Source: a virus. From it: a DNA stretch of 64,000 nucleotides. Of the stretch, positions 32,984 to 51,567 are shown piece after piece. The translations under genes were made by a program, and so were the position numbers. Under the pieces are notes generated by a model, which was not told the DNA's origin, did no database searches, and worked only from the letters and a program-made list of their open reading frames with translations. Where the stretch lies: positions 1 to 64,000 of the IMG/VR virus record IMGVR_UViG_3300020205_002210; one strand, 5' to 3'. The first letter of the stretch is position 1. Each line of letters begins with the position of its first letter.

Positions 32984-33310
32984 ATGGCAAATGTTTTTAA
33001 AAATCAACTTCAAGCTGCGGTAGGCACATCACCCGTAACAATATATACGGCAGGTGCCGGTGTTTCCACGACTGTCATTGGTATGACTATCGCAAACATA
33101 TTGAATGTACCTATAACAGCAAATGTTATTGTAACTTCTTCATCTTCAGATTACTATATGGTTAAGATGGCAACTATCGATCCGGGAAGTTCACTAATCA
33201 CAATTGGTGGTGAACAAAAGCTTGTTCTGGAAGCCACAGATTCACTTAAAGTATCTACAAGCAACGCATCGGCAGCTGATGTAATTCTAAGTCTGTTGGA
33301 AATAACGTAA
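32984..33310 (+). CDS. Beta-sandwich fibre-connector protein, family member 1
   Basis: 108 residues: 'VTIYTAGAGVSTTVIGMTIA', 'NVPITANVIVTSSSSDYYMV', 'ATIDPGSSLITIGGEQKLVL' and a closing 'VILSLLEIT'. The plan (hydrophobic strands, a P-G/A-x-S turn, then L-x-x-x-D-x-L and a final strand) is shared with the proteins at 37431, 39894 and 42035 and with two domains at the end of the 43841 protein. Small proteins of this type occur repeatedly in aquatic phage fibre regions. A connector between fibre and adhesin is my inference. Confidence 0.65.
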   Translation: MANVFKNQLQAAVGTSPVTIYTAGAGVSTTVIGMTIANILNVPITANVIVTSSSSDYYMVKMATIDPGSSLITIGGEQKLVLEATDSLKVSTSNASAADVILSLLEIT

Positions 33311-36300: not shown

Positions 36301-37421
36301 ACTCGGCTTTCTTACATGCTAATGCGGCTTTTGCGGCCGCGAATGCCACTGGAGGTAGTGGAACATTATTAATACAAACCGACAACTTCACATCAAACGG
36401 TAATACAACAACCTACACTTTAGGTATAACACCGGCATCTGAAGCTCATGTAACGGTTGGTGTTGATGGTTTAACACAATTTCGTAATACATATAATATT
36501 GTTGGTAATATAATAACTTTTGATTCCGTGTTTGAGAACGGAGCAAATTTAGAAATTACCACATTGTCTGGTGCTGGCATTACAGTATTGGAATCTGCAA
36601 ACAATACCAACGCAGCATTTATACATGCTAATGCTGCCTTTGCAGTTGCCAATTCTGGTTCAGGTGCAGCATCAGCTGGGTTATATGCCAATGCTGCATT
36701 CTTGCAAGCGAATACGGCAACCACCAATGCTGCTGGAGCAAGTTTGTATGCCAATGCTGCATTCATACAAGCTAATGCAGCATTCACAGCAGCCAATAAT
36801 GCTGTTGATACTTGGGTAAGAGATGCTGCTAATGCTGCCAGTTCTTACGCTAACTCCGCTTTTCTTGCTGCAAATACAGCCGACTCAAAAGCAGTAACAG
36901 CTGGTTCATATGCTAACTCATCATACACACAAGCCAATACCGCTACAACCAATGCATCAATAGCCGATGGTAAGGCAGTAACTGCTGGTTCATATGCTAA
37001 TGCAGCATTTTTGCAAGCCAATGCGGCCTTCACTGCTGCTAATAATTCTACAGACACTTGGGTCCGAGGTGCTGCTAATGCAGCCAGTTCTTACGCGAAC
37101 TCTGCATATACTCAGGCCAATACTGCTACAATAAATGCATTAGCTGCATCCACTTATGCTAACTCGGCATACGCTAAGGCCAACTCAATTTCTTCCGGGA
37201 TTACATTTACAGCCAACTCTGGTGTTCCTGTTTATGCAAATGTTGGTGACCAGTGGTGGTCAACCACCGATGATATACTCTATGAATATATAAATGATGG
37301 TACTTCAAATGTTTGGGTTGATATGTCATCTTCTGCCATAACAAGTACATCTGTTGCTTCATCTTCATCTTCAATAAATAATGCAAGGACTATCATTAAT
37401 GCATATGTCTTTGGATCTTAA
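33312..37421 (+). CDS. Very long YANAAF-repeat tail fibre (cassette A)
   Basis: 1369 residues, dominated by 'YANAAFIQANTA', 'AASSYANSAYTQANTATTNA' and 'AANNAVDTWVRDAANAASSY' repeats predicted to form a trimeric coiled shaft. Four copies of a beta-domain of about 70 residues (VDNFTSNGNTTTYTL, then 'VGVDGLTQFRNTY', 'GNIITFDSVFENGANLEITT') interrupt the shaft at about 48-118, 290-363, 555-630 and 1013-1090. A further domain of about 90 residues at 797-883 (DIVVTGNLTIQGQQTYANTQ onward) is nearly identical to one in the 43841 fibre. The C-terminus is Ser-rich and ends NAYVFGS. Confidence 0.85.
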   Translation: MKFSYIGNQENKDVRIAGSYANSAFSHANAAFLAANTSGGGSVSVGTIAITVDNFTSNGNTTTYTLSTTPTAEQYVTVGVDGLTQFRNTYNTSGNIITFDSVFENGANIEVTTITSAIAVETSANTTNAAFAVANSAAQYANAAFVQANAAFAVANSGSGAASAGLYANAAFIQANTAIDNAASASLYANAAFLAANNAVDTWVRDAANAASSYANSAYTQANTATTNAATADNKAVTSGSYANASFLHANAAFAVANSGSGAASAGSYANAAFIQANSAYELANAVAGGGTLLIQTDNFTANGNTTTFGLSVVPVSEAYVTVGLNGLTQFRNTYTITGNIITFDSVFENGSNLEITTISGAGITVLASANNTNAAFLQANAAFLAANNAIDTWVRGAANSAGQYANSAYTQANTATTNASTADGKAVTAGSYANAAFLQANTATNDAASASLYANAAFLAANNAVDTWVRDAANAAGSYANSAYTQANTATTNASIADGKAVTSGVYANSAFLHANAAFAIANSGSGAASAGTYANAAFIQANSSYELANTIASGGTLYINVDNFTSNGNTTTYTLGVTPVTESHVTVGVDGLVQFRNTYSVVGNIITFDSVFENGANLEITTLSGTGITVLNSANNTNAAFLQSNAAFIHANAAFAVANSGSGAASAGSYANAAFIQANTAISNAASASLYANAAFIQANAAFTAANNAVDTWVRDAANAASSYANSAYTQANTATTNAATADNKAVTSGSYANAAFSQANTATTNAATADDKAVTVGSYANSAFTRANNSLNITTGGTVTGDIVVTGNLTIQGQQTYANTQTVLIADNIITLNAAIDQASAPAFNAGIEVDRGSSANTSLLWNESTDKWVATNDGTNYFNLASDAAESYANSAYTQANTATTNAATADGKAVTSGLYANAAFIQANTAIDNAASASLYANAAFLKANNATDTWVRDAANAASSYANSAYSQANTATTNAATADNKAVTSGTYANSAFLHANAAFAAANATGGSGTLLIQTDNFTSNGNTTTYTLGITPASEAHVTVGVDGLTQFRNTYNIVGNIITFDSVFENGANLEITTLSGAGITVLESANNTNAAFIHANAAFAVANSGSGAASAGLYANAAFLQANTATTNAAGASLYANAAFIQANAAFTAANNAVDTWVRDAANAASSYANSAFLAANTADSKAVTAGSYANSSYTQANTATTNASIADGKAVTAGSYANAAFLQANAAFTAANNSTDTWVRGAANAASSYANSAYTQANTATINALAASTYANSAYAKANSISSGITFTANSGVPVYANVGDQWWSTTDDILYEYINDGTSNVWVDMSSSAITSTSVASSSSSINNARTIINAYVFGS
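33455..36590 (+). repeat. Four dispersed copies of a 210-bp fibre domain
   Basis: Copies begin near 33455, 34180, 34976 and 36350. Each contains GACAA(C/T)TT(T/C)AC...AA(C/T)GG and, about 100 nt later, ATTTCG(T/C)AA(T/C)AC(A)CAT. They are separated by 0.7-1.4 kb of Ala/Asn-rich repeats, so unequal recombination could change fibre length in whole-domain steps. Confidence 0.7.
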
Positions 37422-37430
37422 GGAATAAAC

Positions 37431-37787
37431 ATGGCATTAAATCTAGCCAATACAATAACAATAACGGCCAAAACGGCACTGGTTAATGTTACAACTGTTT
37501 CCGCAAATGTACTAAGTAACGCAACAAGTAGTGGACAGATTCACAAAATTAACACTATCATGTTTAATAATTATGGTGTTACGAATATCACTGCAAATCT
37601 TACAATTAATCGCAGCGCTGTTGGTGATTTTTATGTTGCTAGACTCATAACAGTTCCAGCTAGTTCTATTTTAACTGTTATTGCCAAAGACAATGCAATT
37701 TATTTGGAAGAAGGTGACACACTACAAGCACATGGTTCTGCAAATTCATCAATGCATTTGATCGTTGGTCACGAACTACTGAGTTAA
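37431..37787 (+). CDS. Beta-sandwich fibre-connector protein, family member 2
   Basis: 118 residues: 'TTVSANVLSNATSSGQIHKI', 'NTIMFNNYGVTNITANLTIN', 'ARLITVPASSILTVIAKDNA', 'IYLEEGDTLQAHGSANSSMH' and 'LIVGHELLS'. The same plan with identical spacing of 'KINTI', 'VPA-x-S', 'YLEEG' and 'S/G-E' is seen at 39894 and 42035. It lies between the 1369-residue fibre and a glycine-rich adhesin, each boundary being under 12 nt. It is probably expressed in fixed ratio with the adhesin. Confidence 0.7.
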   Translation: MALNLANTITITAKTALVNVTTVSANVLSNATSSGQIHKINTIMFNNYGVTNITANLTINRSAVGDFYVARLITVPASSILTVIAKDNAIYLEEGDTLQAHGSANSSMHLIVGHELLS

Positions 37788-37788
37788 C

Positions 37789-38820
37789 ATGAGAACAAGA
37801 TCAAATTATGGTGTAACCGGTTCAGCAGTAACACTTTCCGCAGCAAGCACCGGTGGTTTTTTTGGTTCGGAAGATTTGCGTTTAGGTAGATTGAATAGTG
37901 TTTGGCCAGAAATATTTATTCCTGTTGTGTCGGCGGTAGAGTATCTTGTAGTAGCTGGCGGCGGCGGCGGCGGTGGATGGATAGGCGGCGGAGGCGGGGC
38001 GGGTGGATTTAAAACCGCAACAGGATTTTCAGTAAGTGCTGGAACACCTATAACTATCACGGTTGGTGCCGGCGGCGGCGCGGGCACCGGAGCTCCCGGC
38101 GGACAAGGTAACCCTGGTATAGTGGGAAGCAATTCAGTATTTTCATCTATCACTAGCTTGGGTGGAGGATATGGAGCTTCTGCGATTGGTTCATCCGGTG
38201 GTACCGGTGGCTCAGGCGGCGGCGGGGCCGATTCTGGTAGTTCATCCGTTGCCGGCGGCGGCGGATTAGGAACAGCTGGCCAAGGTAATAACGGCGGCGG
38301 CGGAATCGATGGCTCTGGCGGCGCGGCTGGTGGCGGCGGGGGAGCCGGCGCAGCAGGCTCGATTGCTGTCGCTGCTACTTATCCTTCAGGTGCTAATGGT
38401 GGTATAGGTTTACAATCTTCAATATCAGGAACATCAACATATTATGCCGGCGGCGGAGGAGGAGGTACTTTTTCTGGACCAAGCACTACCGCCGGCAACG
38501 GTGGATCAGGTGGCGGTGGTGGAGGGAGTAGCCGTACAGGTTCATCTGGCGGCACAGGAGGTATCAACGGCGGCCAAAATGGTGGAATTGGTGTAGTTGC
38601 TGGTGCTGGTGGAATTAATTCTGGTGGTGGCGGTGGCGGCGGTAACGGCGCGGGTTCTTTTGTTACTGATAATGGAGGCGCCGGCGGTTCCGGTATAGTA
38701 ATATTGCGTTATCTTGATGCATATGCAGCAGCCACATCAACCACAGGTTCACCAACAATCACAACCGCTGGTGGTTATAGGATATATAAGTTTACTAGTT
38801 CTGGTTCGATAACCTTTTAA
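37789..38820 (+). CDS. Glycine-rich receptor-binding adhesin (cassette A)
   Basis: 343 residues. Residues 1-40 hold the WP plug (GGFFGSEDLRLGRLNSVWP). 'AVEYLVVAGGGGGGGW' then opens a polyglycine-II-like domain with many GGGG loops. The end 'GSGIVILRYLD', 'TAGGYRIYKFTSSGSITF' is shared with two other adhesins here. Glycine-rich adhesins (Salmonella phage S16 gp38 type) carry specificity in loops between glycine motifs. Local GC is much higher than the surroundings because of GGC/GGT codons. It is probably the tip of the preceding fibre. Confidence 0.8.
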   Translation: MRTRSNYGVTGSAVTLSAASTGGFFGSEDLRLGRLNSVWPEIFIPVVSAVEYLVVAGGGGGGGWIGGGGGAGGFKTATGFSVSAGTPITITVGAGGGAGTGAPGGQGNPGIVGSNSVFSSITSLGGGYGASAIGSSGGTGGSGGGGADSGSSSVAGGGGLGTAGQGNNGGGGIDGSGGAAGGGGGAGAAGSIAVAATYPSGANGGIGLQSSISGTSTYYAGGGGGGTFSGPSTTAGNGGSGGGGGGSSRTGSSGGTGGINGGQNGGIGVVAGAGGINSGGGGGGGNGAGSFVTDNGGAGGSGIVILRYLDAYAAATSTTGSPTITTAGGYRIYKFTSSGSITF

Positions 38821-38829
38821 GAAAAATAG

Positions 38830-39882
38830 ATGGCTTTTCCAACAACACCAACAAACGGACAAACAGCTTCTGTCAATGGTATTACATACCAATACAGTAC
38901 AACAAAGACTGCGTGGACTGTTGTACCAAATACATTGTTGGTACAAGCTAATGCGGCTTTTATACAAGCAAATGCAGCCTTCACACAGGCTAATACTGCA
39001 ACAAATAATGCTGCTGGAGCAAGCCTTTATGCCAATGCTGCATTCTTGGCAGCCAATAATTCGACAGATACCTGGGTAAGAGGTGCTGCTAATGCTGCCA
39101 GTTCTTATGCTAACTCTGCTTATACGCAGGCAAATACAGCAACCACTAATGCATCGGTGGCCGATGATAAAGCGGTATCTTCTGGAGTTTATGCCAACGC
39201 TGCTTTTATACAAGCTAATACAGGTACAACTAATGCTGCTGGTGCAAGTCTATATGCAAACGCAGCCTTCTTACAAGCCAATACGGCAACCAATAACGCT
39301 GCTGGAGCAAGTTTATATGCTAATGCTTCCTTTCTGCAAGCCAATACTGCTGCGACAAATGCAATAAGTGCTGGGCTATATGCTAATGCAGCATTCTTAG
39401 CAGCTAACAATGCAGTAGATACATGGGTTCGTGATGCTGCTAATGCAGCCAGTTCGTATGCGAACTCAGCATACACGCAGGCAAATACAGCAACAACGAA
39501 TGCTGCTACAGCTGACGGCAAAGCAGTAACATCTGGTTCATATGCAAACTCTGCATTCTTACATGCTAATGCTGCCTTTGAGGCAGCCAACACAGGTGGT
39601 GGTACACCAGTTAGTGTAACGACCAACAAGTTTACTGCGAATGGTTCAACAAGTACATTTAATTTAACTGTAACACCAGATAATGAAAATCTAGTTACTG
39701 CCGTTGTTGATGGTATTGTTCAACTTAGAGATACATATATACTATCAGGCAGCACCATTCAATTCGATTCAACAATTTATGCCAACGCAAATGTTGAAAT
39801 AACCACAATTAGTGGTGGTGGTGGAGGAGGCGGAGGTGCATCTTTTGGTCTAGGTTTAATAACATCTTTAATATTCAGATAA
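38830..39882 (+). CDS. YANAAF-repeat tail fibre (cassette B)
   Basis: 350 residues. The N-terminus (FPTTPTNGQTASVNGITYQY, then 'STTKTAWTVV') is a small beta-domain common at the start of phage fibre proteins. Residues 40-250 are YANAAFLQANTATNNAAGAS-type repeats. A beta-domain (TTNKFTANGSTSTFNLTVTP onward) like those in cassette A follows. A Gly8 run and the hydrophobic end LGLITSLIFR close the protein. It is followed 11 nt later by its beta-sandwich partner. Confidence 0.8.
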   Translation: MAFPTTPTNGQTASVNGITYQYSTTKTAWTVVPNTLLVQANAAFIQANAAFTQANTATNNAAGASLYANAAFLAANNSTDTWVRGAANAASSYANSAYTQANTATTNASVADDKAVSSGVYANAAFIQANTGTTNAAGASLYANAAFLQANTATNNAAGASLYANASFLQANTAATNAISAGLYANAAFLAANNAVDTWVRDAANAASSYANSAYTQANTATTNAATADGKAVTSGSYANSAFLHANAAFEAANTGGGTPVSVTTNKFTANGSTSTFNLTVTPDNENLVTAVVDGIVQLRDTYILSGSTIQFDSTIYANANVEITTISGGGGGGGGASFGLGLITSLIFR

Positions 39883-39893
39883 ACGGATAAAAA

Positions 39894-40250
39894 ATGGCAA
39901 ATCCAAATTTATACACTGCAACAACGATAACTGCTAATACATTGACTGCAGCATTAACGACAACATCAACCACACAAATATTGGCCGGTTCTGCAAATCA
40001 GGTTAGAAAAATAAATACGATTATCATTGCAAACATTAACGGTGTTAACTCTGCTAGTTGCAACGTAAGTTATTTTGATGGTACTAATGATCGTGCATTT
40101 GCCAGCCAAGTTTCTATTCCAGCAGGCGCATCTGTGGTTTTAATTGATAGAAACAGTGGTTTCTATATCACAGAAGGCCAAGAAATTAGGGGTGGAGCAA
40201 GTTTAAATAGTTATTTGACTGCGCTTGTAAGTTATGAAACACTTGGTTAA
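39894..40250 (+). CDS. Beta-sandwich fibre-connector protein, family member 3
   Basis: 118 residues, the same length as the member at 37431. Conserved positions include 'TTSTTQILAGSANQVRKINT', 'SCNVSYFDGTNDRAFASQVS', 'IPAGASVVLIDRNSGFYITE' and 'LVSYETLG'. It sits between the cassette B fibre and a seven-bladed propeller adhesin, so this partner type is not restricted to glycine-rich adhesins. Confidence 0.7.
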   Translation: MANPNLYTATTITANTLTAALTTTSTTQILAGSANQVRKINTIIIANINGVNSASCNVSYFDGTNDRAFASQVSIPAGASVVLIDRNSGFYITEGQEIRGGASLNSYLTALVSYETLG

Positions 40251-40259
40251 AGGTAAAAA

Positions 40260-41411
40260 ATGCCTAGAATAAATGGCGGAATTATTGGTAAATCAAATAG
40301 ACCCGAATTTTATAAATCTGGAGGCATCTGGACATTATCGGATGTTGAGTTATCAAGACGCATTGGACAGTGGCCGTTAGCTATTGGTAATATTTCTATT
40401 GGTGTAGCGCAAGGCACATCACCATATATACAAATATATCCATGGACCACCGGTACAGGATTTGGCGCTAAGTATGCGGATCCAGCTACATTACCCACTG
40501 GTGTTGGGAATGGAATAGATTTCAGTCCTAGTGGATCAGATGTTGGTGTTGCTCATACTACTACACCTTTTGTCTCTATATATCCATGGAGTAGTATTGG
40601 ATTTGGTACCAAGTATGCTAACCCAGTTACATTGCCGTCGAGCGCTGGCCAAGGAATAAATTTCAGTCCTAGTGGATCGGATGTTGGTGTTGCTCATACT
40701 ACTACACCTTTTGTGGCTATATATCCGTGGACCACTGGTACAGGATTTGGTACCAAGTATGCTAACCCATCTACATTGCCCGCCAGTCACGGCCAAGGAA
40801 TAAATTTCAGTCCTAGTGGAACAGATGTTGGTGTTGCACATCAGAGTTCACCTTATGTCTCCATATATCCATGGACCACTGGTACAGGATTTGGTACCAA
40901 GTATGCTAACCCAGCTACATTGCCGCCGAACAATGGCAATGCCGTGAATTTCAGTCCTAGTGGAACAGATGTAGGTATTGCCAATTCAACCACGACACCT
41001 TATGTCGGCATATATCCATGGACCACTGGTACAGGATTTGGTACGAGGTATGCTAACCCAGGTACATCACCTGGTGATAGCGTAAATGGAATTAATTTCA
41101 GTCCTAGTGGATTAGATGTGGCTTTGGCCGGCGCCGCAAGCCCATATTTATTTTTATATCCATGGACCACCGGTACAGGATTTGGTACCAAGTATGCTAA
41201 CCCAGCTACACTACCCTCCGGAGCAACCGGATACGATGTATCTTTCAGTCCTTATGGAAATGATATTGCATATGTAAATGGAACAGTAACACCAAGTATA
41301 TCCGTATATCCATGGATTTCGGGTACAGGATTTGGCACCAAGTATGCTAATCCGAACATTGCCACTTCTAGCACAGTGAACTCGGTGTCTTTTGCTGCGC
41401 TTGCAGCTTAA
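40260..41411 (+). CDS. Seven-bladed beta-propeller adhesin (cassette B)
   Basis: 383 residues. Residues 21-39 are the WP plug (GGIWTLSDVELSRRIGQWP). Then come exactly seven repeats of about 45 residues with consensus FSPSGSDVGVAHTTTPFVSI, 'YPWTTGTGFGTKYANPATLP'. The first repeat lacks the FSPSG strand and a last 'SVSFAALAA' strand could close the ring with it, as in WD40 folds. The D-V-G/S-I-Y-P-W pattern resembles WD40 blades. Propellers often bind sugars or proteins, so a host receptor tip is likely. A terminal Ala-rich tail ends the gene. Confidence 0.8.
   Translation: MPRINGGIIGKSNRPEFYKSGGIWTLSDVELSRRIGQWPLAIGNISIGVAQGTSPYIQIYPWTTGTGFGAKYADPATLPTGVGNGIDFSPSGSDVGVAHTTTPFVSIYPWSSIGFGTKYANPVTLPSSAGQGINFSPSGSDVGVAHTTTPFVAIYPWTTGTGFGTKYANPSTLPASHGQGINFSPSGTDVGVAHQSSPYVSIYPWTTGTGFGTKYANPATLPPNNGNAVNFSPSGTDVGIANSTTTPYVGIYPWTTGTGFGTRYANPGTSPGDSVNGINFSPSGLDVALAGAASPYLFLYPWTTGTGFGTKYANPATLPSGATGYDVSFSPYGNDIAYVNGTVTPSISVYPWISGTGFGTKYANPNIATSSTVNSVSFAALAA
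40500..41370 (+). repeat. Propeller-blade repeats (about 135-145 bp)
   Basis: Blades share near-identical DNA blocks: ATTTCAGTCCTAGTGGA and CCATGGACCACTGGTACAGG with TTTGGTACCAAGTATGCTAA. Conserved frame positions alternate with variable loops, mostly in 'GVAHTTTPF' and 'LPSSAGQGIN'. High DNA identity suggests recent blade duplication. Confidence 0.75.
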
Positions 41412-41432
41412 TTATTTAAAAAGGAAAATAAA

Positions 41433-41807
41433 ATGAGTTTTTATACTATTACGGAACAGAAAAAATTTGAAGCAATCGCAGATGCGGTTGTTGGTCGAGA
41501 AGAAGAAATTTTTAGTTACGATATAAATATCACTAACTATGAAACAATGTTGATAACACTACCAGAAGGAGAATGGCCGCAACATCTCGTTCAGTATCAG
41601 AGATCAACACTGGATCAGGTACCCGATGAATACGATCAAACAGTTTCAGACTACCAATACAGAGATAGGATCAAGAGTCTTTTAAAAACCGAAAGACTTG
41701 AAAGAAGTAAATCTTTCAAGGTTTATGAAGCACTTCTATCTCAACTTCCAGAAAACCAGAAAGAATCTTTAATTGCTGCTGCTGTACAAAAAAGATTGTC
41801 ACAGTAA
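41433..41807 (+). CDS. Small helical protein after propeller adhesin (possible assembly protein)
   Basis: 124 residues, helical, acidic/basic mixed: 'EQKKFEAIADAVVGREEEIF', 'LPEGEWPQHLVQYQRSTLDQ' and 'ERSKSFKVYEALLSQLPENQ'. There is no signal peptide or enzyme motif. The ribosome site AAAAAGGA precedes the ATG by 10 nt. It follows the cassette B adhesin as other small proteins follow cassettes C and D, which suggests a fibre assembly or chaperone role by position only. Confidence 0.6.
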   Translation: MSFYTITEQKKFEAIADAVVGREEEIFSYDINITNYETMLITLPEGEWPQHLVQYQRSTLDQVPDEYDQTVSDYQYRDRIKSLLKTERLERSKSFKVYEALLSQLPENQKESLIAAAVQKRLSQ

Positions 41808-41841
41808 TTTTGATTGACATTCTTAAAAAGAACCACATAAA

Positions 41842-42033
41842 ATGCCGACAAAGCTTTCGCCTTCAAACTTAGATGAAACCCAAAACTTTTCAGCTTTGGT
41901 TCCTTCGGTATTCCAAGCAGCAAACGCAGCCTTCTTACAAGCAAACGCAGCCTTCCTACAAGCTAACACAGGTGGTGGCGGTGGAACCAGTTCAGCTGCA
42001 GCGGCAGGTTACTCATTAATATTCGGGGGATAA
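41842..42033 (+). CDS. Minimal YANAAF fibre (cassette C)
   Basis: 63 residues. The N-terminal anchor (KLSPSNLDETQNFSALVPSV) matches the fibres at 43841 and 50830 (LDSSKDFSAFVPSAF). Two 'AAFLQAN' repeats, a Gly5 linker and a 'GYSLIFGG' end like the 'SLIFR' of cassette B follow. This is the shortest possible version of the fibre: anchor, two repeats and tail. It is followed at once by a beta-sandwich partner. It may be functional or an internally deleted fibre. Confidence 0.65.
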   Translation: MPTKLSPSNLDETQNFSALVPSVFQAANAAFLQANAAFLQANTGGGGGTSSAAAAGYSLIFGG

Positions 42034-42034
42034 C

Positions 42035-42406
42035 ATGGCAGCACCAAATTTAATCGGCGCAACAACAATCAATGGTAAAACAACCGGTGCAAACCTAACG
42101 AGCACAGCTGCAACTACAGTGTTGAATAATCCAGCAAGTTCAGGTAAGTGTTTGAAAGTGAACACAGTCAATGCTTGTAACTATGGTGCAGCAGTAGCAA
42201 ATGTAACAATAGGTTATTATACTGGTGCAAATGTGGGTGGAGTACAATTTCAAATTGCGGGAAATATTAGTGTACCTGGAAATAGTACATTAAATGTGAT
42301 TGATAAATCTAGTCAATATTATCTAGAAGAAGGTACTAGTTTAGGAGCCACTGTAGGCACAGCCAATACAATCATTGTAACTTGCAGTTATGAGGATATA
42401 AGTTAA
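42035..42406 (+). CDS. Beta-sandwich fibre-connector protein, family member 4
   Basis: 123 residues: 'STAATTVLNNPASSGKCLKV', 'NTVNACNYGAAVANVTIGYY', 'VPGNSTLNVIDKSSQYYLEE' and 'IIVTCSYEDIS'. The spacing of conserved positions matches the members at 37431 and 39894. Two cysteines are not conserved in the family. It is directly linked to the minimal fibre (one base) and the second glycine-rich adhesin (one base). Confidence 0.7.
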   Translation: MAAPNLIGATTINGKTTGANLTSTAATTVLNNPASSGKCLKVNTVNACNYGAAVANVTIGYYTGANVGGVQFQIAGNISVPGNSTLNVIDKSSQYYLEEGTSLGATVGTANTIIVTCSYEDIS

Positions 42407-42407
42407 C

Positions 42408-43397
42408 ATGGTGAAGAGATATCAAAGTGGATTAATATCTGCTAACAATTCACCAACTAATATTTCACAAACATCTGGTTTTTTTAATATTAGTCAGCAA
42501 ATGCAAGCCAAACAAGAGGGATTATGGCCACAAGCAAATAACAAAATAGACTCTTCTAGTGGCACAATTTTTACATCCACTCGACAGGTGGTATCTGGTC
42601 AAGTAATACAATATAAATATCATGCTTTTTTATCCTCTTCCACTTTTGTGACAACCGGTAATGGCGTAGTTGATATATTAGTTGTCGGCGCCGGCGGCGG
42701 TGGTGGCGGAGGTGGCGCCACGAACCAAGGTGGTGATGGCGGTTCCGGCGCCGGCGTTGTAGTAATATCTAATCGATCTATTGCATCAAATACATATACA
42801 ATTACTATTGGCGGCGGCGGATCAGGCGGAGCTCTTAGTGCGTCCGCTGGTGCAAATGGTTCAAATGGTACATTTAGTTCTGTAAGTGGAATTGTTGGAG
42901 CTAACTCAGCTGGCGGATTATTTGGCCGTGGTGGCGGCAATGGTGCGGCTTATCGAGCAGGAAATGGCGCCGGCGGCACCTGGACTGGTACCGCATCAGC
43001 AACTGCGGGTCTAACACCAGGTATTGGATTGGGAGTAGATTTTTTTAACCTAGTTGATTTGGGTGAAAACACACCGGTAAGAAATTTTAGATTTGACACG
43101 GCAAACGGACTCATATACTTTGCAAGCGGCGGCACTAGTACATGGGCATCGACCACCAGCTCCGGTGGATCACCCGGAAGTGCCCGGGGGAATGCTGCGC
43201 TTGGCGGCGGCGCAGGCTGGGTAGTGACACAAACCTTTGGTGATACCGGATTGAATGCAACGAATGATGTACGACTTCTCCGTCAAGCTGCACCAAATAT
43301 GGGTGGCGGTGGAGCTTCTGGATTTCGTGCTAGCGGATCCGCTAGCGATGGAAGTACTGGAGGTAGCGGGTTAGTTGTCATAAGATACAGAATATAA
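42408..43397 (+). CDS. Glycine-rich receptor-binding adhesin (cassette C)
   Basis: 329 residues. The WP plug is 'SGFFNISQQMQAKQEGLWP' at residues 23-41. 'GVVDILVVGAGGGGGGGGAT' opens the glycine-rich part, which has GGGGG loops, and 'GSGLVVIRYRI' ends it. The final TSSGSITF segment of the other adhesins is missing, so the protein stops earlier in the fold. Many GGCGCC/GCCGGC stretches give locally high GC. It is predicted to bind the receptor at the fibre tip. Confidence 0.78.
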   Translation: MVKRYQSGLISANNSPTNISQTSGFFNISQQMQAKQEGLWPQANNKIDSSSGTIFTSTRQVVSGQVIQYKYHAFLSSSTFVTTGNGVVDILVVGAGGGGGGGGATNQGGDGGSGAGVVVISNRSIASNTYTITIGGGGSGGALSASAGANGSNGTFSSVSGIVGANSAGGLFGRGGGNGAAYRAGNGAGGTWTGTASATAGLTPGIGLGVDFFNLVDLGENTPVRNFRFDTANGLIYFASGGTSTWASTTSSGGSPGSARGNAALGGGAGWVVTQTFGDTGLNATNDVRLLRQAAPNMGGGGASGFRASGSASDGSTGGSGLVVIRYRI

Positions 43398-43431
43398 TTT
43401 ATTTTCAATAACATTTTAAAGGAGAAATATC

Positions 43432-43794
43432 ATGTCACATTTTGCACAAATTGATGAAAACAATATAGTAACTAGAGTACTAGTAATCGAACAAGATGTT
43501 GTCGATACTGGTCTATTTGGAGAACCTAATACTTGGGTTCAAACAAGTTACAACACTTCGGGTGGCATACACCGTTTAGGTGGCACACCACTACGGAAGA
43601 ATTATGCAGGCATAGGTTACACTTATGACTCTGAAAGAGATGCATTTATTCCACCAAAACCATATGCAAGCTGGATTTTGGTTGAAGATACATGCCAATG
43701 GCAAGCACCAGTGCCAATGAATGACGATGGTAAATTTTACCAATGGAATGAAGATACATTGTCTTGGGATGAAATCGTCACTCCAACAGAATAA
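43432..43794 (+). CDS. Conserved small protein of T4-like aquatic phages (possible fibre assembly)
   Basis: 120 residues. It starts MSHFAQIDENNIVTRVLVIE, with 'WVQTSYNTSGGIHRL', 'LRKNYAGIGYTYDSERDAFI', 'PPKPYASWILVEDTCQWQAP' and 'YQWNEDTLSWDEI'. This is a common pattern in aquatic T4-like phages, usually close to fibre genes; its role is not established. The final W-x-E-x-T-x-x-W segment is echoed in the 71-residue protein at 50606. A GGAGAA ribosome site precedes the ATG. Fibre folding is a reasonable guess. Confidence 0.75.
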   Translation: MSHFAQIDENNIVTRVLVIEQDVVDTGLFGEPNTWVQTSYNTSGGIHRLGGTPLRKNYAGIGYTYDSERDAFIPPKPYASWILVEDTCQWQAPVPMNDDGKFYQWNEDTLSWDEIVTPTE

Positions 43795-43800
43795 TAAATA
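43793..43800 (+). promoter_or_regulatory. Late promoter core AATAAATA before cassette D
   Basis: AATAAATACTAG follows the stop of the small conserved protein and lies 40 nt before the ATG at 43841. It would start the transcript for cassette D. Confidence 0.55.
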
Positions 43801-43840
43801 CTAGCTTGGGTTCAATAACTTTCTAAAAGAATAAAAAGAC

Positions 43841-46702
43841 ATGTCAACAAATCTTAAACCGGGCAGATTAGATTCTAGTAAAGACTTTTCCGCATTTGTT
43901 CCTTCGGCATTTCAGGCAGCAAATTTAGCATTCTTACAGGCTAATGCTGCATTTACCGTTGCAAATTCCGGTTCAGGTGCGGCTTCATCTGGGTTATATG
44001 CGAATGCGGCTTTTTTACAAGCCAACTCTGCATTCACTAGAGCAAACAACTCGTTAAATATTACTACTGGCGGTACAGTTGCTGGCGATGTTATTATTAC
44101 TGGTAATTTAACTATTCAAGGTGAGCGCACCTACGCAAATACACAAACGGTGTTGATTGCAGATAACATCATTACTGTCAATGCCGCTATAGATCAAGCT
44201 TCTGCACCAGTTTTTAATGCTGGTATTGAAGTTGATCGTGGTTCTTCCGCCAATACAGCTCTGCTTTGGAATGAATCTACTGACAAGTGGACTGTAACGA
44301 ATGATGGCACAAATTATTTTAACCTTGCTTCAGATGCGGCTGAATCATATGCCAACGCAGCATTCTTACAAGCAAATACCGGTGTAACCAATGCGGCAAC
44401 AGCTGACAGCAAAGCAGTAACATCCGGTTCATATGCTAATGCTGCTTTCTTGCAAGCAAACACTGCTGCAACAAATGCAACAAGTGCTGGCTTATATGCC
44501 AACGCTGCGTTCTTGGCAGCCAATAATTCTACAGACACTTGGGTAAGAGGTGCTGCTAACGCAGCCAGTTCTTATGCAAACTCTGCTTATACCCAAGCAA
44601 ATACAGCAACTACTAATGCAGCAACAGCTGATTCTAAAGCAGTAACAGCTGGTTCATATGCAAATTCAGCCTTTGCCGCGGCTAATAGTAGTAATGGCAC
44701 AGTAACTTCAGTGACAGCTGGAACAGGTTTAACCGCAGGTCCTTTTATTACGGCTGGTAATACTCTCATAGTTAATGGGGTTGCTAGCTCTTACCTATCT
44801 GTGTCCGCTCTATCTGACACTCAAGCAATAGCAGTTTATCGTGGCGCATCTGGTTACCTACAAGCCGTTACTCTTAATGTCAGCGGTACAACAATCACAT
44901 CAGGCACTGTACTGACTCTCAATTCCACTAGCACAGTTCACACATCTGTCACTGCACTATCTGCTACTCAGGCTATAGTAACTTATTATGGTGTGAACCA
45001 GTACTTGCAAACCGCTACTCTTAATGTCAGCGGTACAACAATCACAGCAGGCACTATACTGACTGTTAATGCAGTTAGCAGCCAGCACAGCAAAGTTACA
45101 AAATTAACCGCTACTCAGGCGCTGGTGGTTTTTCAAGGCCAATCTCCTTCGGATTACCTAAACACCTGTACACTAAACATCAGTGGAACAACGGTTACAG
45201 CAGGTGCCGTATTGACTGTTAATGCAGTTAGCAGCGCCGAGACCTCACTCACTACACTATCAGCTACTCAGGCGTTAGTAACATACACAGGCGCGTCTGA
45301 ATACCTACAAACCTGTACCCTAAACATCAGTGGAACAACGGTTACAGCAGGCGCCGTGTTGAATATTACATCAGCCGCAACCTACTACGGAGCAGTCACG
45401 GCCTTATCCGCTACTCAGGCTGTGGTATCGTATCGTGGAACATCTAATTATGTAGAAGCTCGTACACTAAACATCAGTGGAACAACGGTTACAGCAGGCG
45501 CAATTCTGGTTGTTAGTGCAGTTGTTAGCGGCTGGCGAGCAATTACAAAAATAACCTCCAGTCAGGCGTTGTTGGCTTATCAGAATTCGGACTTATCTGG
45601 TCGCTTACAAACCGTTATTCTCGATATCAGCGGAACTACAGTCACAGCAGGCAACATTGTTACGGCCAGTGCTGGGAGTGCTTCATACATATCAATCACC
45701 ACACTTACCACCACTCAAGCATTAGTAGTATACTACGGAACAGATGGGTATCTTACAACCGCAACACTACAGTTATCCACCACAATCACAACCAGTGGCA
45801 CAGTTACACTAGCTAATACAGCAGTAACTGCGGGTAGTTACACAAACACCAGTCTGACTGTTGATGCTCAAGGTCGTATTACAGCTGCAGCTAATGGTTC
45901 TGGTAGTGATGCTGCCAGTTCATATGCTAACTCTGCATTCACCGCTGCAAACACTGCTGCAACAAATGCAACAAGTGCTGGCTCATACGCAAATGCAGCA
46001 TTCACCAAGGCTAATACAGGTGGTGGTTCTGGTCTGTTCAACTCTGCAATCAATGTATCAACTGGTTATGCAGTCACAAGTGCTTTGGCAAATGCTGTAG
46101 TGTTTACTGCAAATGCAACAGTTCATTCTATCTATATAACAAACATTGGTGCAGATGTTAATGCTGCAGTAACTATTACTGGTGACTTTACACCAGCAGG
46201 TTCTTCTGCAAATGTTTCATTGTTTAGAAATATTCCAATACCATCTCGTTCTTCTGTAGAGATGTTAAAGAAGCCACAAGTTGTCAGAACAAATGACATT
46301 ATCAAAATGCAATCGTTCTTCAATAGTGTTGCTGCTTCTTCTAATGTACACGCAACTATTGTGTATGAAACTACTGCACTATCTACATTTGATAGATCAG
46401 CTGCATTGGCTGGCACAGGTTACTCCACACTCTATACAGCAACAGGTAGTCCTGCGGTTATTGAGAGTATCAAAGTTGTTAACCAAGATACTGCATTTGG
46501 CAACCACGCAATCAGTATTATCTGGACAAACTCAGGCAACACTATACAAGGTTACATGGCCAAAGAAATTATTTTACCTGCAAACTCTACAATCGAGTTG
46601 TGTGAGGCACCAAAATATCTGTCAACTGGAGATAAACTAGATATCTTTTCATCATTCGCCAACGTAGTATCGGTGTTCGTATCCGCTAAACGCACTTCAT
46701 AA
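43841..46702 (+). CDS. Fibre fused to seven-bladed propeller and two beta-sandwich domains (cassette D)
   Basis: 953 residues. The anchor 'LDSSKDFSAFVPSAF' leads into YANAAF repeats and a hinge domain (VIITGNLTIQGERTYANTQT onward) nearly identical to one in the cassette A fibre. Residues about 303-650 hold seven repeats of about 50 residues, 'TVTAGAVLTVNAVSS', 'LSATQALVTYTG', 'YLQTCTLNISGT', a likely seven-bladed propeller. After further YANAAF units, residues about 726-953 carry two tandem domains of the 118-residue beta-sandwich family ('VFTANATVHSIYITNI' and 'YTATGSPAVIESIKVV'). In other cassettes the sandwich is a separate gene; here it is fused. Confidence 0.78.
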   Translation: MSTNLKPGRLDSSKDFSAFVPSAFQAANLAFLQANAAFTVANSGSGAASSGLYANAAFLQANSAFTRANNSLNITTGGTVAGDVIITGNLTIQGERTYANTQTVLIADNIITVNAAIDQASAPVFNAGIEVDRGSSANTALLWNESTDKWTVTNDGTNYFNLASDAAESYANAAFLQANTGVTNAATADSKAVTSGSYANAAFLQANTAATNATSAGLYANAAFLAANNSTDTWVRGAANAASSYANSAYTQANTATTNAATADSKAVTAGSYANSAFAAANSSNGTVTSVTAGTGLTAGPFITAGNTLIVNGVASSYLSVSALSDTQAIAVYRGASGYLQAVTLNVSGTTITSGTVLTLNSTSTVHTSVTALSATQAIVTYYGVNQYLQTATLNVSGTTITAGTILTVNAVSSQHSKVTKLTATQALVVFQGQSPSDYLNTCTLNISGTTVTAGAVLTVNAVSSAETSLTTLSATQALVTYTGASEYLQTCTLNISGTTVTAGAVLNITSAATYYGAVTALSATQAVVSYRGTSNYVEARTLNISGTTVTAGAILVVSAVVSGWRAITKITSSQALLAYQNSDLSGRLQTVILDISGTTVTAGNIVTASAGSASYISITTLTTTQALVVYYGTDGYLTTATLQLSTTITTSGTVTLANTAVTAGSYTNTSLTVDAQGRITAAANGSGSDAASSYANSAFTAANTAATNATSAGSYANAAFTKANTGGGSGLFNSAINVSTGYAVTSALANAVVFTANATVHSIYITNIGADVNAAVTITGDFTPAGSSANVSLFRNIPIPSRSSVEMLKKPQVVRTNDIIKMQSFFNSVAASSNVHATIVYETTALSTFDRSAALAGTGYSTLYTATGSPAVIESIKVVNQDTAFGNHAISIIWTNSGNTIQGYMAKEIILPANSTIELCEAPKYLSTGDKLDIFSSFANVVSVFVSAKRTS
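44750..45790 (+). repeat. Seven-fold propeller repeats in the cassette D fibre
   Basis: About 145-bp units sharing 'ATCAGTGGAACAACGGTTACAGCAGG'-like blocks encode TLNISGTTVTAGAVL and 'LSATQALVTY'. Neighbouring copies three to five are the most alike at DNA level, suggesting recent duplication. Confidence 0.7.
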
Positions 46703-46712
46703 GAGAAACACT

Positions 46713-47972
46713 ATGGCAATTAGTGGAATATTGACAAGTCGGAATCATTATAACCAGAGGGTTAGTGGTTTGTGGCCGACAATTTCTACATCTCTTTTTA
46801 TTGTAACACCAGCATCGGCAAGTATCAATGAGAGTTCATCATTAACCTTTAATGTTACTGGAGGAAATATTACCAATGGAACATATTACTGGTCAATTAA
46901 TAATGTAACTACTGCGGCCGGTGATTTTTCAGCCAGTTCAGGTTCATTTACAATTACAAACAATGCTGGTTCATTTACAGTAACTGCGGCCGCTGATGCA
47001 ACAACTGAAGGTAGTGAAACATTTACAGTATCAGTACGAACCGGTAGTGTTAGTGGTACTGTAGTTGCCACAAGTAGTTCGGTAACGATTAATGATACTA
47101 GTTTGACACCTGCTTCAACCAACCAATCGGCCATTTTTGGTAGCAGCACCTATGATGGTGTGAATTTTACCAATTTAGTTTCAAACACTGGAGTCGTTCA
47201 GAATAATGTTGCGGGTGTTGGTACTAATAGGGCTGGTTATGCCGGTTCAAATTACGGTACAGATAAGGCAATTTTTGCGTTTGGTGAATCTACAAATGAA
47301 AGAAAATTAATTTCAAACACCGGCGTTGTAGCATCAGCTGTTTCGGGTATAGGAACGATTCGTTACTACCTCGCGGCCGCTCCATTTGGCGGCGACAAAG
47401 CTATATTTGGTTATGGCATTGGGCCCGGTTCCGTTAGAGTATCATTAACCAACCTAGTATCAAACACTGGCGTTGTTGCTAGTGACGTAAGCGGAGTAGG
47501 AACAATTAGAGGCCAGCTAGCTGCAACAAAATATGGCACAGATAAAGCTATATTTGGATATGGTACTGGGGCTAGCAACTATTCACTAACCAACCTAGTA
47601 TCAAACACTGGCGTTGTTGCTTCTGATACTGCTGGTGTTGGTACTGTTAGATACTGGCTTGCAGCTGTAACCTATGGCACAGATAAAGCTATGTTTGGTT
47701 ATGGACTAGGTGCAGCTAATTATTCACTAACCAACCTAATATCAAATACAGGTGTGGTATCTACTGACACTACGGGTGTTGGTACTGCTAGATGGGGATT
47801 AGGAGGCGCAGGTTATAGTACAGATAAAGGCATATTTGCTTATGGTGCGGCGTCTGCTGGTGTGCCGTTATCAATGAAGAATCTGGTTTCAAACACTGGC
47901 GTTGTTGCTCTTGATGCAGCGGGTGTAGGTACTGCCAAGTCGGTCATTACCGCGGCTTCTTTCGGTTCATAA
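46713..47972 (+). CDS. Calx-beta plus six-bladed propeller adhesin (cassette D)
   Basis: 419 residues. The WP plug is 'SGILTSRNHYNQRVSGLWP' at residues 4-22. Residues 30-130 form a Calx-beta-like domain ('VTPASASINESSSLTFNVTG', then 'GSETFTVSV'). Six repeats of about 46 residues follow: 'TDKAIFGYG', 'SLTNLVSNTGVVASDTAGVG' and 'T-x-R-x-x-LAA-x-x-YG'. It ends AASFGS, like its relative at 49633. It is probably a receptor tip. Confidence 0.75.
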   Translation: MAISGILTSRNHYNQRVSGLWPTISTSLFIVTPASASINESSSLTFNVTGGNITNGTYYWSINNVTTAAGDFSASSGSFTITNNAGSFTVTAAADATTEGSETFTVSVRTGSVSGTVVATSSSVTINDTSLTPASTNQSAIFGSSTYDGVNFTNLVSNTGVVQNNVAGVGTNRAGYAGSNYGTDKAIFAFGESTNERKLISNTGVVASAVSGIGTIRYYLAAAPFGGDKAIFGYGIGPGSVRVSLTNLVSNTGVVASDVSGVGTIRGQLAATKYGTDKAIFGYGTGASNYSLTNLVSNTGVVASDTAGVGTVRYWLAAVTYGTDKAMFGYGLGAANYSLTNLISNTGVVSTDTTGVGTARWGLGGAGYSTDKGIFAYGAASAGVPLSMKNLVSNTGVVALDAAGVGTAKSVITAASFGS

Positions 47973-48024
47973 CAATTAACCAACCTAAATATTTTTTTAC
48001 AACAACCTTTTTTATGGATAAATT

Positions 48025-48630
48025 ATGGCATCAAATCTAAACTCTGAATTCAACTATCGTTATCAAGTTATTGGTAGCACACCGTGGGAAAAAATTAAAA
48101 CTCTACAAGGATTCTTAGTCGGTAGAAAACGCGCAGCAGTGCTTGAAGAATGTGCTGAACTTAAATATCAAGCTAAACTAGAAGAGTTGGATCACCTAAG
48201 ATCAATACCGGCAGCAAAGCACCTGATTCTAAATTTGCGTGCTGAAATTTTGGAATTAGAATCACACTTAGATGACCAAAAACATGCATTCGAACTTAAT
48301 CGTAAAGAGATTAAAATATTGGAAAAGTTAATGTCAGAACTTTATATGGAAGTTGAACCAACAAGACTTAAACATGAAGACGGTACACTTTATACAGACG
48401 ATGAGATGTTTGAGGAAAATGCTAACTATGAATTTACAGTAACTGTTGGTCGTGAGATTCAGGCAGAAATTATTGCCAATGGTAGACCAAGTCCTGCTAA
48501 ATTATTAAATGCAATGAGTAATCCGCAAACATTAGAGTCACTTAAATTAGTTGGGCTTATTCCAAAAGAAGCAGCCTTATTGATGCAAAATGATGTTGTT
48601 GGATTAATTGGTAACGATACAACCGAGTAA
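48025..48630 (+). CDS. Helical coiled-coil protein of fibre region (possible assembly protein)
   Basis: 201 residues. The first part, 'NSEFNYRYQVIGSTPWEKIK' and 'TLQGFLVGRKRAAVLEE', is helical. A heptad-rich section (LNLRAEILELESHLDDQKHA) follows. The C-terminus, 'AEIIANGRPSPAKLLNAMSN' and 'LESLKLVGLIPKEAALLMQN', looks like an ordered helical cap. I know of similar proteins in T4-like cyanophages without assigned function. Its place after the cassette D adhesin matches the position of the other small accessory proteins. Confidence 0.65.
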   Translation: MASNLNSEFNYRYQVIGSTPWEKIKTLQGFLVGRKRAAVLEECAELKYQAKLEELDHLRSIPAAKHLILNLRAEILELESHLDDQKHAFELNRKEIKILEKLMSELYMEVEPTRLKHEDGTLYTDDEMFEENANYEFTVTVGREIQAEIIANGRPSPAKLLNAMSNPQTLESLKLVGLIPKEAALLMQNDVVGLIGNDTTE

Positions 48631-48637
48631 AACAAAA

Positions 48638-49621
48638 ATGGGTATTTTAGACGATATTTTTTCGTTGCGTAGTATGAATGACCTGAGAGCAGATGGGTTG
48701 TGGCCGACTAGTGTTACTCCGCCTCCAGCACCACCATCATCAGTAGAATATCTTGTAGTTGCTGGAGGCGGAGCAGGTTCTAAGTCAAATGCAGGCGGCG
48801 GCGCAGGCGGGTATAGAACTGCTAGCGGATTTGCTGTTTCTTCAGGTAGTGCATTGACAGTGACCGTAGGTGCCGGTGGCGCAGCATCGACTACTGCTGG
48901 TCAGGGTGCAGTTAATAACGCTTTGTACGGTACTCCTTCGGTATTTTCTTCAATTACATCGAATGCTGGCGGGGGTGGTTTAGCTACTGACGAGTATGGA
49001 TATGGGTATGTGGATCCACCGAGTCTTCAGTCAGTAGCCACCGGTTCGGGCGGTGGATCAGCTGGCAACACTCGTAGATTCGGTGCAAATGGTACAGCCG
49101 GCCAAGGCAATGCTGGTGGAAGATCATCCGAAAATAACGGCTTTGGTTCCTATGGCGGGGGCGGGGGCGGTGCCGGAGCTGTTGGTGGTGGTGCAATTCA
49201 AGGTGCAAGCGGATCAACAATTACCCCTGGTGCCGGAGGCGCCGGTGGTGTAGGCCTATCCTCTAGTATAAGTGGCACAGCAACATATTATGCTGGTGGC
49301 GGCGGCGGCGCGTCTTCCGCAGGGGTACGTGGTGTAGGTGGCACTGGCGGTGGCGGCAGTGGTGAACAAACAAATACTTATGGATCTAGTTACGGCGGTC
49401 CAGGTGTATTTTATTCTCCTGTAGCGGGTACAACTAATACAGGCGGCGGAGGCGGCGGCGGTCATACAGTTGATGGTCAAGCTGGCGGGTCCGGTATAGT
49501 AATTATTCGTTATGCAGATACATCCGCAGCAGCAACATCAACTACAGGTTCACCAACAGTCACGGTAGCAGGTGGTTATAGAGTGTATAAATTTACATCT
49601 TCTGGTTCAATAACATTCTAA
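48638..49621 (+). CDS. Glycine-rich receptor-binding adhesin 3
   Basis: 327 residues from the ATG at 48638. An earlier in-frame ATG at 48608 overlaps the previous gene and was rejected. The WP plug (DDIFSLRSMNDLRADGLWP) covers residues 5-23. 'SVEYLVVAGGGAGSKSNAGG' opens the glycine-rich domain, and it ends 'GSGIVIIRYAD', 'VAGGYRVYKFTSSGSITF', nearly the same as the adhesin at 37789. No separate fibre or sandwich gene precedes it, so it may use the cassette D fibre. Confidence 0.78.
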   Translation: MGILDDIFSLRSMNDLRADGLWPTSVTPPPAPPSSVEYLVVAGGGAGSKSNAGGGAGGYRTASGFAVSSGSALTVTVGAGGAASTTAGQGAVNNALYGTPSVFSSITSNAGGGGLATDEYGYGYVDPPSLQSVATGSGGGSAGNTRRFGANGTAGQGNAGGRSSENNGFGSYGGGGGGAGAVGGGAIQGASGSTITPGAGGAGGVGLSSSISGTATYYAGGGGGASSAGVRGVGGTGGGGSGEQTNTYGSSYGGPGVFYSPVAGTTNTGGGGGGGHTVDGQAGGSGIVIIRYADTSAAATSTTGSPTVTVAGGYRVYKFTSSGSITF

Positions 49622-49632
49622 AATAATAAAAA

Positions 49633-50577
49633 ATGGCAGATACAAATATTACAGGGCCACTTTGGGGTTACGAGTATCGAAGCAGAAGACTTGCTGGCTT
49701 GTGGCCGACTAGTGTTTATGTGGCTGCAGTTGCAAATATTAGGGCTATATTTGGTTTTGGATTTAGTACTGTTAAGGTATCAATAACCAACCTAGTATCA
49801 AACACTGGTGTAGTTGCTACAGACACTGCTGGTGTTGGTACTGTTAAATCGCAGTTAGCAGCTGCTGGTTATGGTACAGATAAAGCTATCTTTGGATATG
49901 GACTTAATGCAGGTGATTCCGATATATCAATAACCAACCTAGTATCAAACACTGGTGTAGTTGCTACCGATACTGCTGGTGTTGGTACTGCTAGAAGTAA
50001 TTTAGCTGCTGCTGGGTATGGCACAGATAAGGCTATATTTGGATATGGAAGTGGTCCAACTGCTATAACCAACAAAGTATCAAACACTGGTGTAGTTGCA
50101 ACTAATACCACTGGTGTTGGTACTGAGAGGTTTCATCTGGCAGCAGCTGGGTATGGCACCGATAAAGCAATATTTGGATATGGAGCTGCAGCAGGATTTG
50201 TATTAGTATCATTAACAAACCTAGTATCAAATACTGGAGTGGTAGCAACTGACACCACTGGTGTTGGTACTGTTAGGCGACTTCTAGCAGCCGCAGGATA
50301 TGGTACCGATAAAGCTATATTTGGTTATGGCCTCGGTCCAGTATCAATGACCAACCTAGTATCAAATACTGGAGTGGTAGCAACTGACACCACTGGTGTT
50401 GGTACTGCTAGATCCTCATTGGCAGCTGCTGGTTATAGCACAGATAAGGCTATATTTGGATATGGAGGAGACGCATCAATGACCAACCTAGTATCAAACA
50501 CTGGTGTAGTTGCTACAGACACTGCTGGTGTTGGTACTGCTAGAAGTAATTTAGCTGCTGCGTCCTACGGTTCATAA
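49633..50577 (+). CDS. Six-bladed propeller adhesin
   Basis: 314 residues. The WP plug is 'TGPLWGYEYRSRRLAGLWP' at residues 7-25. The rest is six repeats, 'TDKAIFGYGLGPVSMTNLVS', 'NTGVVATDTTGVGTARSSLA' and 'AAGY'. It is a shorter version of the 46713 adhesin without its Calx-beta domain, and both end in A-A-S-x-G-S. The blades share very similar DNA. Loop positions between FGYG and TNLVS vary most, as expected for binding sites. Confidence 0.75.
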   Translation: MADTNITGPLWGYEYRSRRLAGLWPTSVYVAAVANIRAIFGFGFSTVKVSITNLVSNTGVVATDTAGVGTVKSQLAAAGYGTDKAIFGYGLNAGDSDISITNLVSNTGVVATDTAGVGTARSNLAAAGYGTDKAIFGYGSGPTAITNKVSNTGVVATNTTGVGTERFHLAAAGYGTDKAIFGYGAAAGFVLVSLTNLVSNTGVVATDTTGVGTVRRLLAAAGYGTDKAIFGYGLGPVSMTNLVSNTGVVATDTTGVGTARSSLAAAGYSTDKAIFGYGGDASMTNLVSNTGVVATDTAGVGTARSNLAAASYGS

Positions 50578-50829: not shown

Positions 50830-51567
50830 ATGGCAACAAAAGTACCACCGTTAGCGTTAGATTCGACTAAAGACTTTTCTGCATTAGTCCCTGCGGCGTT
50901 TGCTGCAGCAAATGCGGCCTATGCTCAATCGAATTCAACTGTCACATTAGTCTCTGAAGTTTTCAATAAGGCCAATACAGCTGCTGATGGTGGTTCAAAT
51001 GCAAACGCAGCATTTCTGCAAGCCAATGTTGCAATATCTAATGCTGCTGGTGCAAGTCTGTATGCAAATGCGGCTTTCTTACATGCAAACGCAGCATTCT
51101 TACAAGCTAACACCGGTGGTGCAGATCAATTAGCAAGAGACACGGCAAATGCAGCTTTCATTCAAGCCAATGCAGCATTCATTCAAGCAAATACAGGTGG
51201 TGCAAGTACCGATCAAGTGGCAAGAAATACTGCAAATGCGGCCTTCTTACGAGCCAATACAGATTTCATTTCACTTAGTATGCCAGGTACCATCACCTCG
51301 CCGGTGACTGGAAATGCAAGATATTATCCAACCGATACAATTGTTATAAATACAGTATATGCAAATCTAAGTGAAGCTCCCACAGGTAATTTTACTTTCA
51401 TCATTAAAAAGAATGGTACCAGTATAGGTAACACATTTATATTTTCAAGTGCCGTGATGACACCGAATGCGGTTAATGTTTCATTGACTACAAGTGATTA
51501 TCTGACACTGGATGTTACAGGTGTTAATGGTTCAAACTTAAATGTTAAATTAAAATACAGTTATTAA
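50830..51567 (+). CDS. Short YANAAF fibre with beta-rich tip (cassette E)
   Basis: 245 residues. The anchor 'LALDSTKDFSALVPAAFAAA' matches those at 41842 and 43841. Then come AAFLQAN-type repeats with 'RDTANAAFIQANAAFIQANT' and a C-terminal 100-residue beta-domain ('ISLSMPGTITSPVTGNARYY', 'GNFTFIIKKNGTSIGNTFIF', 'LNVKLKYSY'), which has a carbohydrate-binding-like strand pattern. It is probably a fibre carrying its own tip. The genes after it do not follow the sandwich-adhesin order. Confidence 0.7.
   Translation: MATKVPPLALDSTKDFSALVPAAFAAANAAYAQSNSTVTLVSEVFNKANTAADGGSNANAAFLQANVAISNAAGASLYANAAFLHANAAFLQANTGGADQLARDTANAAFIQANAAFIQANTGGASTDQVARNTANAAFLRANTDFISLSMPGTITSPVTGNARYYPTDTIVINTVYANLSEAPTGNFTFIIKKNGTSIGNTFIFSSAVMTPNAVNVSLTTSDYLTLDVTGVNGSNLNVKLKYSY

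Follow-up and report, generated by a model that had tools for sequence, protein, structure and literature searches.

Organization of the adhesin array

The window, which denotes the whole 64 kb stretch of DNA that was analysed, was part of a 121,249-bp IMG/VR record from an uncultured aquatic T4-like virus. The adhesin array was flanked by a gp6-type baseplate wedge, a Gp10_C-containing protein and gp13, and the neighbouring gene at 27884 matched Gp10_C. The region between the baseplate wedge genes and gp13 is the host recognition cluster in related phages (PMC7029224), and the proteins of the array are probably virion adhesins.

Six adhesins on the plus strand, denoted by their positions, were proposed by the first-pass annotation to share an N-terminal segment of 19 residues with a spacing of exactly 13 residues before Trp-Pro (W-P). 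All six segments, referred to here as plugs, were found in the translations. The plug of 37789 (GGFFGSEDLRLGRLNSVWP, residues 22–40) was located at 37852–37908, that of 40260 (GGIWTLSDVELSRRIGQWP, residues 21–39) at 40320–40376 and that of 42408 (SGFFNISQQMQAKQEGLWP, residues 23–41) at 42474–42530. The plug of 46713 (SGILTSRNHYNQRVSGLWP, residues 4–22) occupied 46722–46778, that of 48638 (DDIFSLRSMNDLRADGLWP) 48650–48706, and that of 49633 (TGPLWGYEYRSRRLAGLWP, residues 7–25) 49651–49707. The ORF of 48638 opened at TTG 48608, and ATG 48638 was its likely start. The first anchor of the plug was non-aromatic in 46713 (SGIL) and 49633 (TGPL). A regular expression matched the plug of 37789; those of 42408, 46713, 48638 and 49633 were matched by the regular expression and a window-free profile, and that of 40260 by both and was also modelled with AlphaFold. 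The adhesin at 54161, which begins MAINLEYLVIAGGGG, had no plug, as the annotation had stated. A further element, designated element A, preceded the plug in 40260 (40272–40301, NGGIIGKSNR) and 42408 (42414–42443, KRYQSGLISA) and was missing from 46713.

The folds behind the plugs differed. The tip domain Gly_rich_2 (PF21722) was found above the gathering cut-off in 37789, 42408 and 48638, and also in the plug-less 54161; it was not matched by 40260, 46713 or 49633. A seven-bladed propeller was predicted for 40260, and 49633 had a repeat, propeller-like tip. Hence, the earlier description of different folds held for the glycine-rich and seven-bladed tips, and the Calx-beta and six-bladed labels of 46713 and 49633 found no confirmation in Pfam or NCBIfam.

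Long YANAAFLQANTA-repeat proteins, which are likely fibre shafts, were encoded at 33312–37421, 38830–39882, 43841–46702 and 50830–51567, and 33312 additionally repeated a domain of the type DNFTSNGNTTTYTL...ITFDSVFENGANIEVTTI. A 120-residue protein of unknown function (phrog_7759) was encoded at 43432–43794; in other phages, proteins of this type also lay ahead of plug adhesins (e.g., L221:5928, L226, L249 and L259).

Form and distribution of the plug family

According to the relatives recovered by tip-anchored searches, the general form of the plug was G-[VI]-W-[ST]-L-x9-G-x-W-P. Hundreds of relatives were present in IMG/VR, N-terminal in phage proteins; the tips behind them were glycine-rich, LamG-like, FN3-like or of several propeller-like types. 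Element A lay upstream of a linker and the plug and had the form M-x(2-4)-[RK]-[YW]-x-G-G-h-I-x-x-x, with the core Y-x-G-G-h-I. The conservation of G-V-W-S/T-L and W-P in loci L223–L342 was partly forced by the search pattern; the conservation of element A was independent because this element was not in the pattern. The description of the segment as 19 residues without gaps was correct in that the spacing was 13 in all six adhesins, and incomplete in that most relatives had element A upstream, a few had another spacing and some adhesins after a sandwich gene (described below) had element A and no plug. In loci chosen without regard to the plug, 97 of 100 plugs had a spacing of 13, and shuffles were flat. 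A strict rule of 13 residues was rejected, since this spacing was dominant rather than universal: the subclass MPNYQGVWSLSTQYQNxxGWP had a spacing of 11, and the helix was missing from the variant SGIWTLGNWP.

The plug DNA pattern had at least 131 sites in at least 120 stretches of IMG/VR, and among the matches listed 120 of 131 sites were N-terminal in an ORF; the loci partly overlapped and came from a single viral collection. In 257 Gb of prokaryote genomes, which served as a control, the same pattern had 69 sites, and the rule used for IMG/VR classed eight of them as N-terminal. All clear relatives from this control (L348, L389, L400 and L410) lay on MAG contigs. Two of these contigs (L348 and L400) were binned as Candidatus Woesearchaeota and carried typical phage plug proteins; they are probably misbinned phage DNA. 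When long class-specific N-termini were used as queries against 50,697 phage records, the sole clear carrier was DSL-LC04, which is metagenome-assembled (PMC10611076). A tblastn search of the phage records with the window plug N-terminus and the 49633 repeat fragment returned nothing relevant. A weak match in HTVC033P was rejected as a plug, since it lay inside an annotated gene and was not N-terminal; HTVC033P did have a sandwich gene and element A genes. No model in Pfam, PHROG, NCBIfam or PDB covered the plug.

Additional plug copies were observed about 290–315 residues into some proteins, between two glycine-rich domains (L230, L243, L255, L302, L331 and L338). These internal copies read ELNKASGVWSLQSQ...WP, and one such protein may hold two tips.

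Statistical support for the window segments

The window and 85 related loci together comprised 2,732 ORFs, in which the regular expression had 12 matches, whereas composition shuffles gave a mean of 0.5 and a maximum of 2. With the window-free profile, the five best-scoring of 153 ORFs were 42408 (1.5e-11), 40260 (4.7e-10), 48638 (5.6e-4), 46713 (0.015) and 49633 (0.025); 37789 was not recovered (1.6). Only 42408 and 40260 stayed significant with the iterated profile. A matrix built from the six 19-residue segments reached at least 13 bits in 166 of 4,137 other ORFs versus 1.3 in shuffles; this result reflects coherence rather than frequency because many of the loci had been fetched via the plug pattern. 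Across the complete record, exactly these six places were marked by the family profile, which includes the window plugs. Spacing, W-P and position are the basis for counting 37789 as a member, and 46713 and 49633 were tentatively included on the same features, their profile support being weak. The family is large and uncatalogued, and the window segments lie at its divergent edge.

Structural models

The AlphaFold model of 40260 was a complete seven-bladed propeller (pTM 0.86, pLDDT about 90), for which Foldseek returned WD40 and lactonase propellers. Residues 1–40, including the plug, lay outside the propeller with pLDDT values of 43–62; in this model the plug was separate from the tip fold. 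A helix of nine residues (26–34) with aromatics at its flanks was predicted both in this model and in that of a sandwich–plug fusion. The annotation had asked whether models dock the plug on the beta-sandwich protein. No confident docking was obtained: the fusion, modelled as a single chain with a plug depth of 13 sequences, had no resolved contact and low confidence in the plug. Closure of the propeller by the plug was considered and rejected, given that the model propeller was complete without it and that YPW propellers occur behind other N-termini.

Exchange of tips behind the plug

L001 was the nearest relative of the window, and 48638 and L001:6432 shared a stretch with 92.7% DNA identity over 2.1 kb. 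The homology stopped 6 nt past the Trp-Pro codons, at position 48712 (boundary 48707–48712, plus strand), and the tip fold then changed. Beyond this point, the window had a glycine-rich tip, and L001 had a tip related to that of 46713; the same plug thus bore different tips. Moreover, among 225 plug genes, 22 of the 113 gene pairs whose plugs were at least 85% identical had tips without BLAST similarity. The YPW propeller tip was found behind the plug and also behind many N-termini unrelated to it. The idea of a common piece for swapping tips was therefore borne out by natural exchange at the plug boundary, and the expectation that the plug would predict adhesin-type genes agreed with the N-terminal pattern sites, the gene order and the tip swaps.

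The sandwich gene as candidate partner

Three stand-alone genes on the plus strand encoded small predicted beta-sandwich proteins, and each directly preceded a plug adhesin: sandwich gene 1 (37431–37787, 118 residues) lay upstream of 37789, sandwich gene 2 (39894–40250, 118 residues) upstream of 40260 and sandwich gene 3 (42035–42406, 123 residues) upstream of 42408. The product of gene 2 was modelled by AlphaFold as a jelly roll with pLDDT about 90. Two sandwich-like domains were also found on the plus strand at 46061–46687 (residues 741–843 and 850–949; 1.5e-6 and 3.8e-9), at the C-terminus of 43841, a long YANAAF-repeat protein and presumed shaft directly upstream of the plug adhesin 46713. 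This fusion suggests that the sandwich is placed at the fibre end. A more distant sandwich relative (32984–33310, E 3.9e-19), the PHROG matches of which were of unknown function, preceded a shaft-like protein rather than a plug adhesin.

A profile of the three window sandwiches found 101 relatives in loci fetched via the plug pattern. In these loci, a sandwich lay directly upstream of 34 of 110 plug genes, and the gene after a sandwich had a plug in 48 of 97 cases and element A in most others. The gene order was then assessed without this bias, in loci fetched by the sandwich alone and with non-redundant next genes. The plug was present in 64 of 118 next genes versus 0 of 122 preceding genes, 77 of 909 other plus-strand ORFs and 0 of 444 minus-strand ORFs (Fisher 1e-25). 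Some genes after a sandwich had element A without a plug. The recurrent orders were S-C, S-C-C and S-a-B-C, where S is the sandwich, C is element A with plug, a is element A only and B is plug only. The adhesins 48638 and 49633 had no sandwich directly upstream, and many plug genes elsewhere followed another adhesin; hence, one sandwich would need to serve several plugs, or another socket exists.

No family in PDB, Pfam, PHROGs or NCBIfam matched the sandwich, and no T4gp10-like docking domain was matched in it. In Foldseek searches of PDB, the sandwich was nearest to phage cement (KHP40 cement protein, 4dmi) and nucleoplasmin-like oligomers, and in BFVD to virion proteins of cyanophages and to a tail-fibre-like protein of P-SSM2.

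Proposed function and alternatives

The segment is likely a modular N-terminal docking element, or Trp plug, of tailed-phage receptor-binding proteins with exchangeable tips. Two hydrophobic or aromatic anchors, usually the W of G-h-W and the W of W-P, would cap a short helix of fixed length and attach the adhesin at its receiving site, on either the tail or a fibre; the tryptophans may fill pockets there. The C-terminal tip, of any fold, would bind the host, and tips could be exchanged at the plug end by recombination because the plug is constant. The receiving site would most likely be the upstream jelly-roll sandwich protein, itself at the end of the fibre shaft, and element A would provide a second contact. 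Gene order and fusion make the sandwich the best socket candidate, and the plug is probably seated there by its tryptophans. The link to the beta-sandwich protein suggested by the annotation was supported by the one-sided gene order only.

The plug may instead dock elsewhere, on the baseplate, collar or head fibre, with the sandwich being merely a linked structural protein. This possibility is unlikely in view of the strong one-sided gene order and of the sandwich domains that end fibre-like proteins; it would account for the finding that a sandwich directly precedes just 34 of 110 plug genes, for the lack of docking in the model and for the capsid-decorating jelly rolls close to the sandwich in Foldseek. 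An oligomerisation element was also considered, in which the helix and tryptophans of three chains pack together and attachment occurs via element A or other parts. The short helix flanked by aromatics is consistent with such packing, as are some B-only proteins without element A and some proteins without a plug. However, pure trimerisation needs no placement after one upstream gene (64/118 versus 0/122), and the tips have different folds and probably different oligomeric states, so that this role is rather improbable. It is very improbable, and already disfavoured, that the segment belongs to the start of the tip fold (e.g., as a propeller closure) or is a removed leader peptide: its N-terminal position and low model confidence would fit, but the model propeller is complete without it, homologous propellers lack it and unrelated folds stand behind near-identical plugs. 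Chance resemblance of six unrelated segments is scarcely credible, and already disfavoured for 42408, 40260 and 48638: the weak scores of 46713 and 49633 and the absence of 37789 in the independent profiles would fit, but the exact spacing with W-P recurs in six adjacent adhesins, shuffles yield about 0.5 match in 2,732 ORFs and the plug is retained among close relatives that differ in the tip.

Comparison with known docking systems

The docking element proposed here resembles several known systems. In phage S16, gp38 sits at the end of the gp37 fibre through N-terminal helices, the conserved tryptophans of which enter hydrophobic pockets (PMC6851490). Like gp38 of S16 and T2-like phages, the plug proteins would be separate adhesins, some with a glycine-rich tip, and their predicted helix flanked by aromatics may correspond to the tryptophan-bearing helices of gp38. 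However, gp38 has three helices in one chain and a single tip type that sits on gp37, whereas the plug proteins have one predicted helix per chain, many tip folds and an upstream jelly-roll gene. The plug also differs by its fixed x13-W-P spacing and by having no sequence match in PDB. The polyglycine-sandwich tip of S16-type gp38 was not a common feature, with just three of the six adhesins carrying the glycine-rich PF21722. The S16-type gene directly follows the long-tail-fibre gene 37, and its product caps gp37. Plug genes were found directly after a stand-alone sandwich gene or, for 46713, after the gene of a fibre-like protein with terminal sandwich domains; among the shaft-like proteins scanned, none matched a gp37 profile.

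In K1-5/SP6, G7C and Klebsiella phages, a short constant N-terminal peptide joins variable receptor-binding proteins to an adaptor (PMC6872550). The constant N-terminal peptide and several receptor-binding proteins per phage are shared features (PMC6872550), and the constant N-terminus with non-homologous C-termini that is typical of docking-peptide proteins was found here. In contrast, those peptides differ from one phage group to the next, and the adaptor to which they dock has a T4gp10-like domain; the plug is shared by many uncultured phages, and a jelly-roll gene is linked to it. The Pam3 gp24 tail fibre also uses N-terminal helices to dock a glycine-rich tip to the baseplate (PMC9608196), but its long helical bundle and TNF-like domain are unlike the plug, the profile of which matches no PDB chain.

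The plug looks like a standard for exchanging host-recognition parts, since hundreds of uncultured phages have this connector, usually in genes located after one particular small gene. A wider connector standard for adhesins of uncultured aquatic phages, with one Trp plug and one jelly-roll socket family across phage lineages and with tips and whole plug–tip genes traded by unrelated phages, has slightly less than an even chance of being correct. If it is, the recurrent orders (sandwich, A-only, B-only and A+B) would imply that the N-terminus also encodes the position in the virion. Because their tips have no sequence in common, receptor-binding genes are difficult to recognise in uncultured phages; a constant signature at the N-terminus, together with the linked sandwich gene, would locate them across viromes. 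The signature would also mark the exact border between plug and tip, so that tip repertoires and exchange could be counted. The concept of the constant docking peptide, drawn from a few groups of cultured phages, would then also cover a large aquatic population that is uncultured.

Homing-endonuclease-like genes (GIY-YIG and/or NUMOD3) were observed directly after a sandwich or directly before a plug adhesin, at L283:2470–3057 (minus strand), L536:3629–4192, L538:4378–4938 and L287:3853–4395. Such genes could help drive tip exchange. The endonuclease ORF of L283 started with a copy of the first codons of the plug gene (MPSYSG), as if inserted at the plug.
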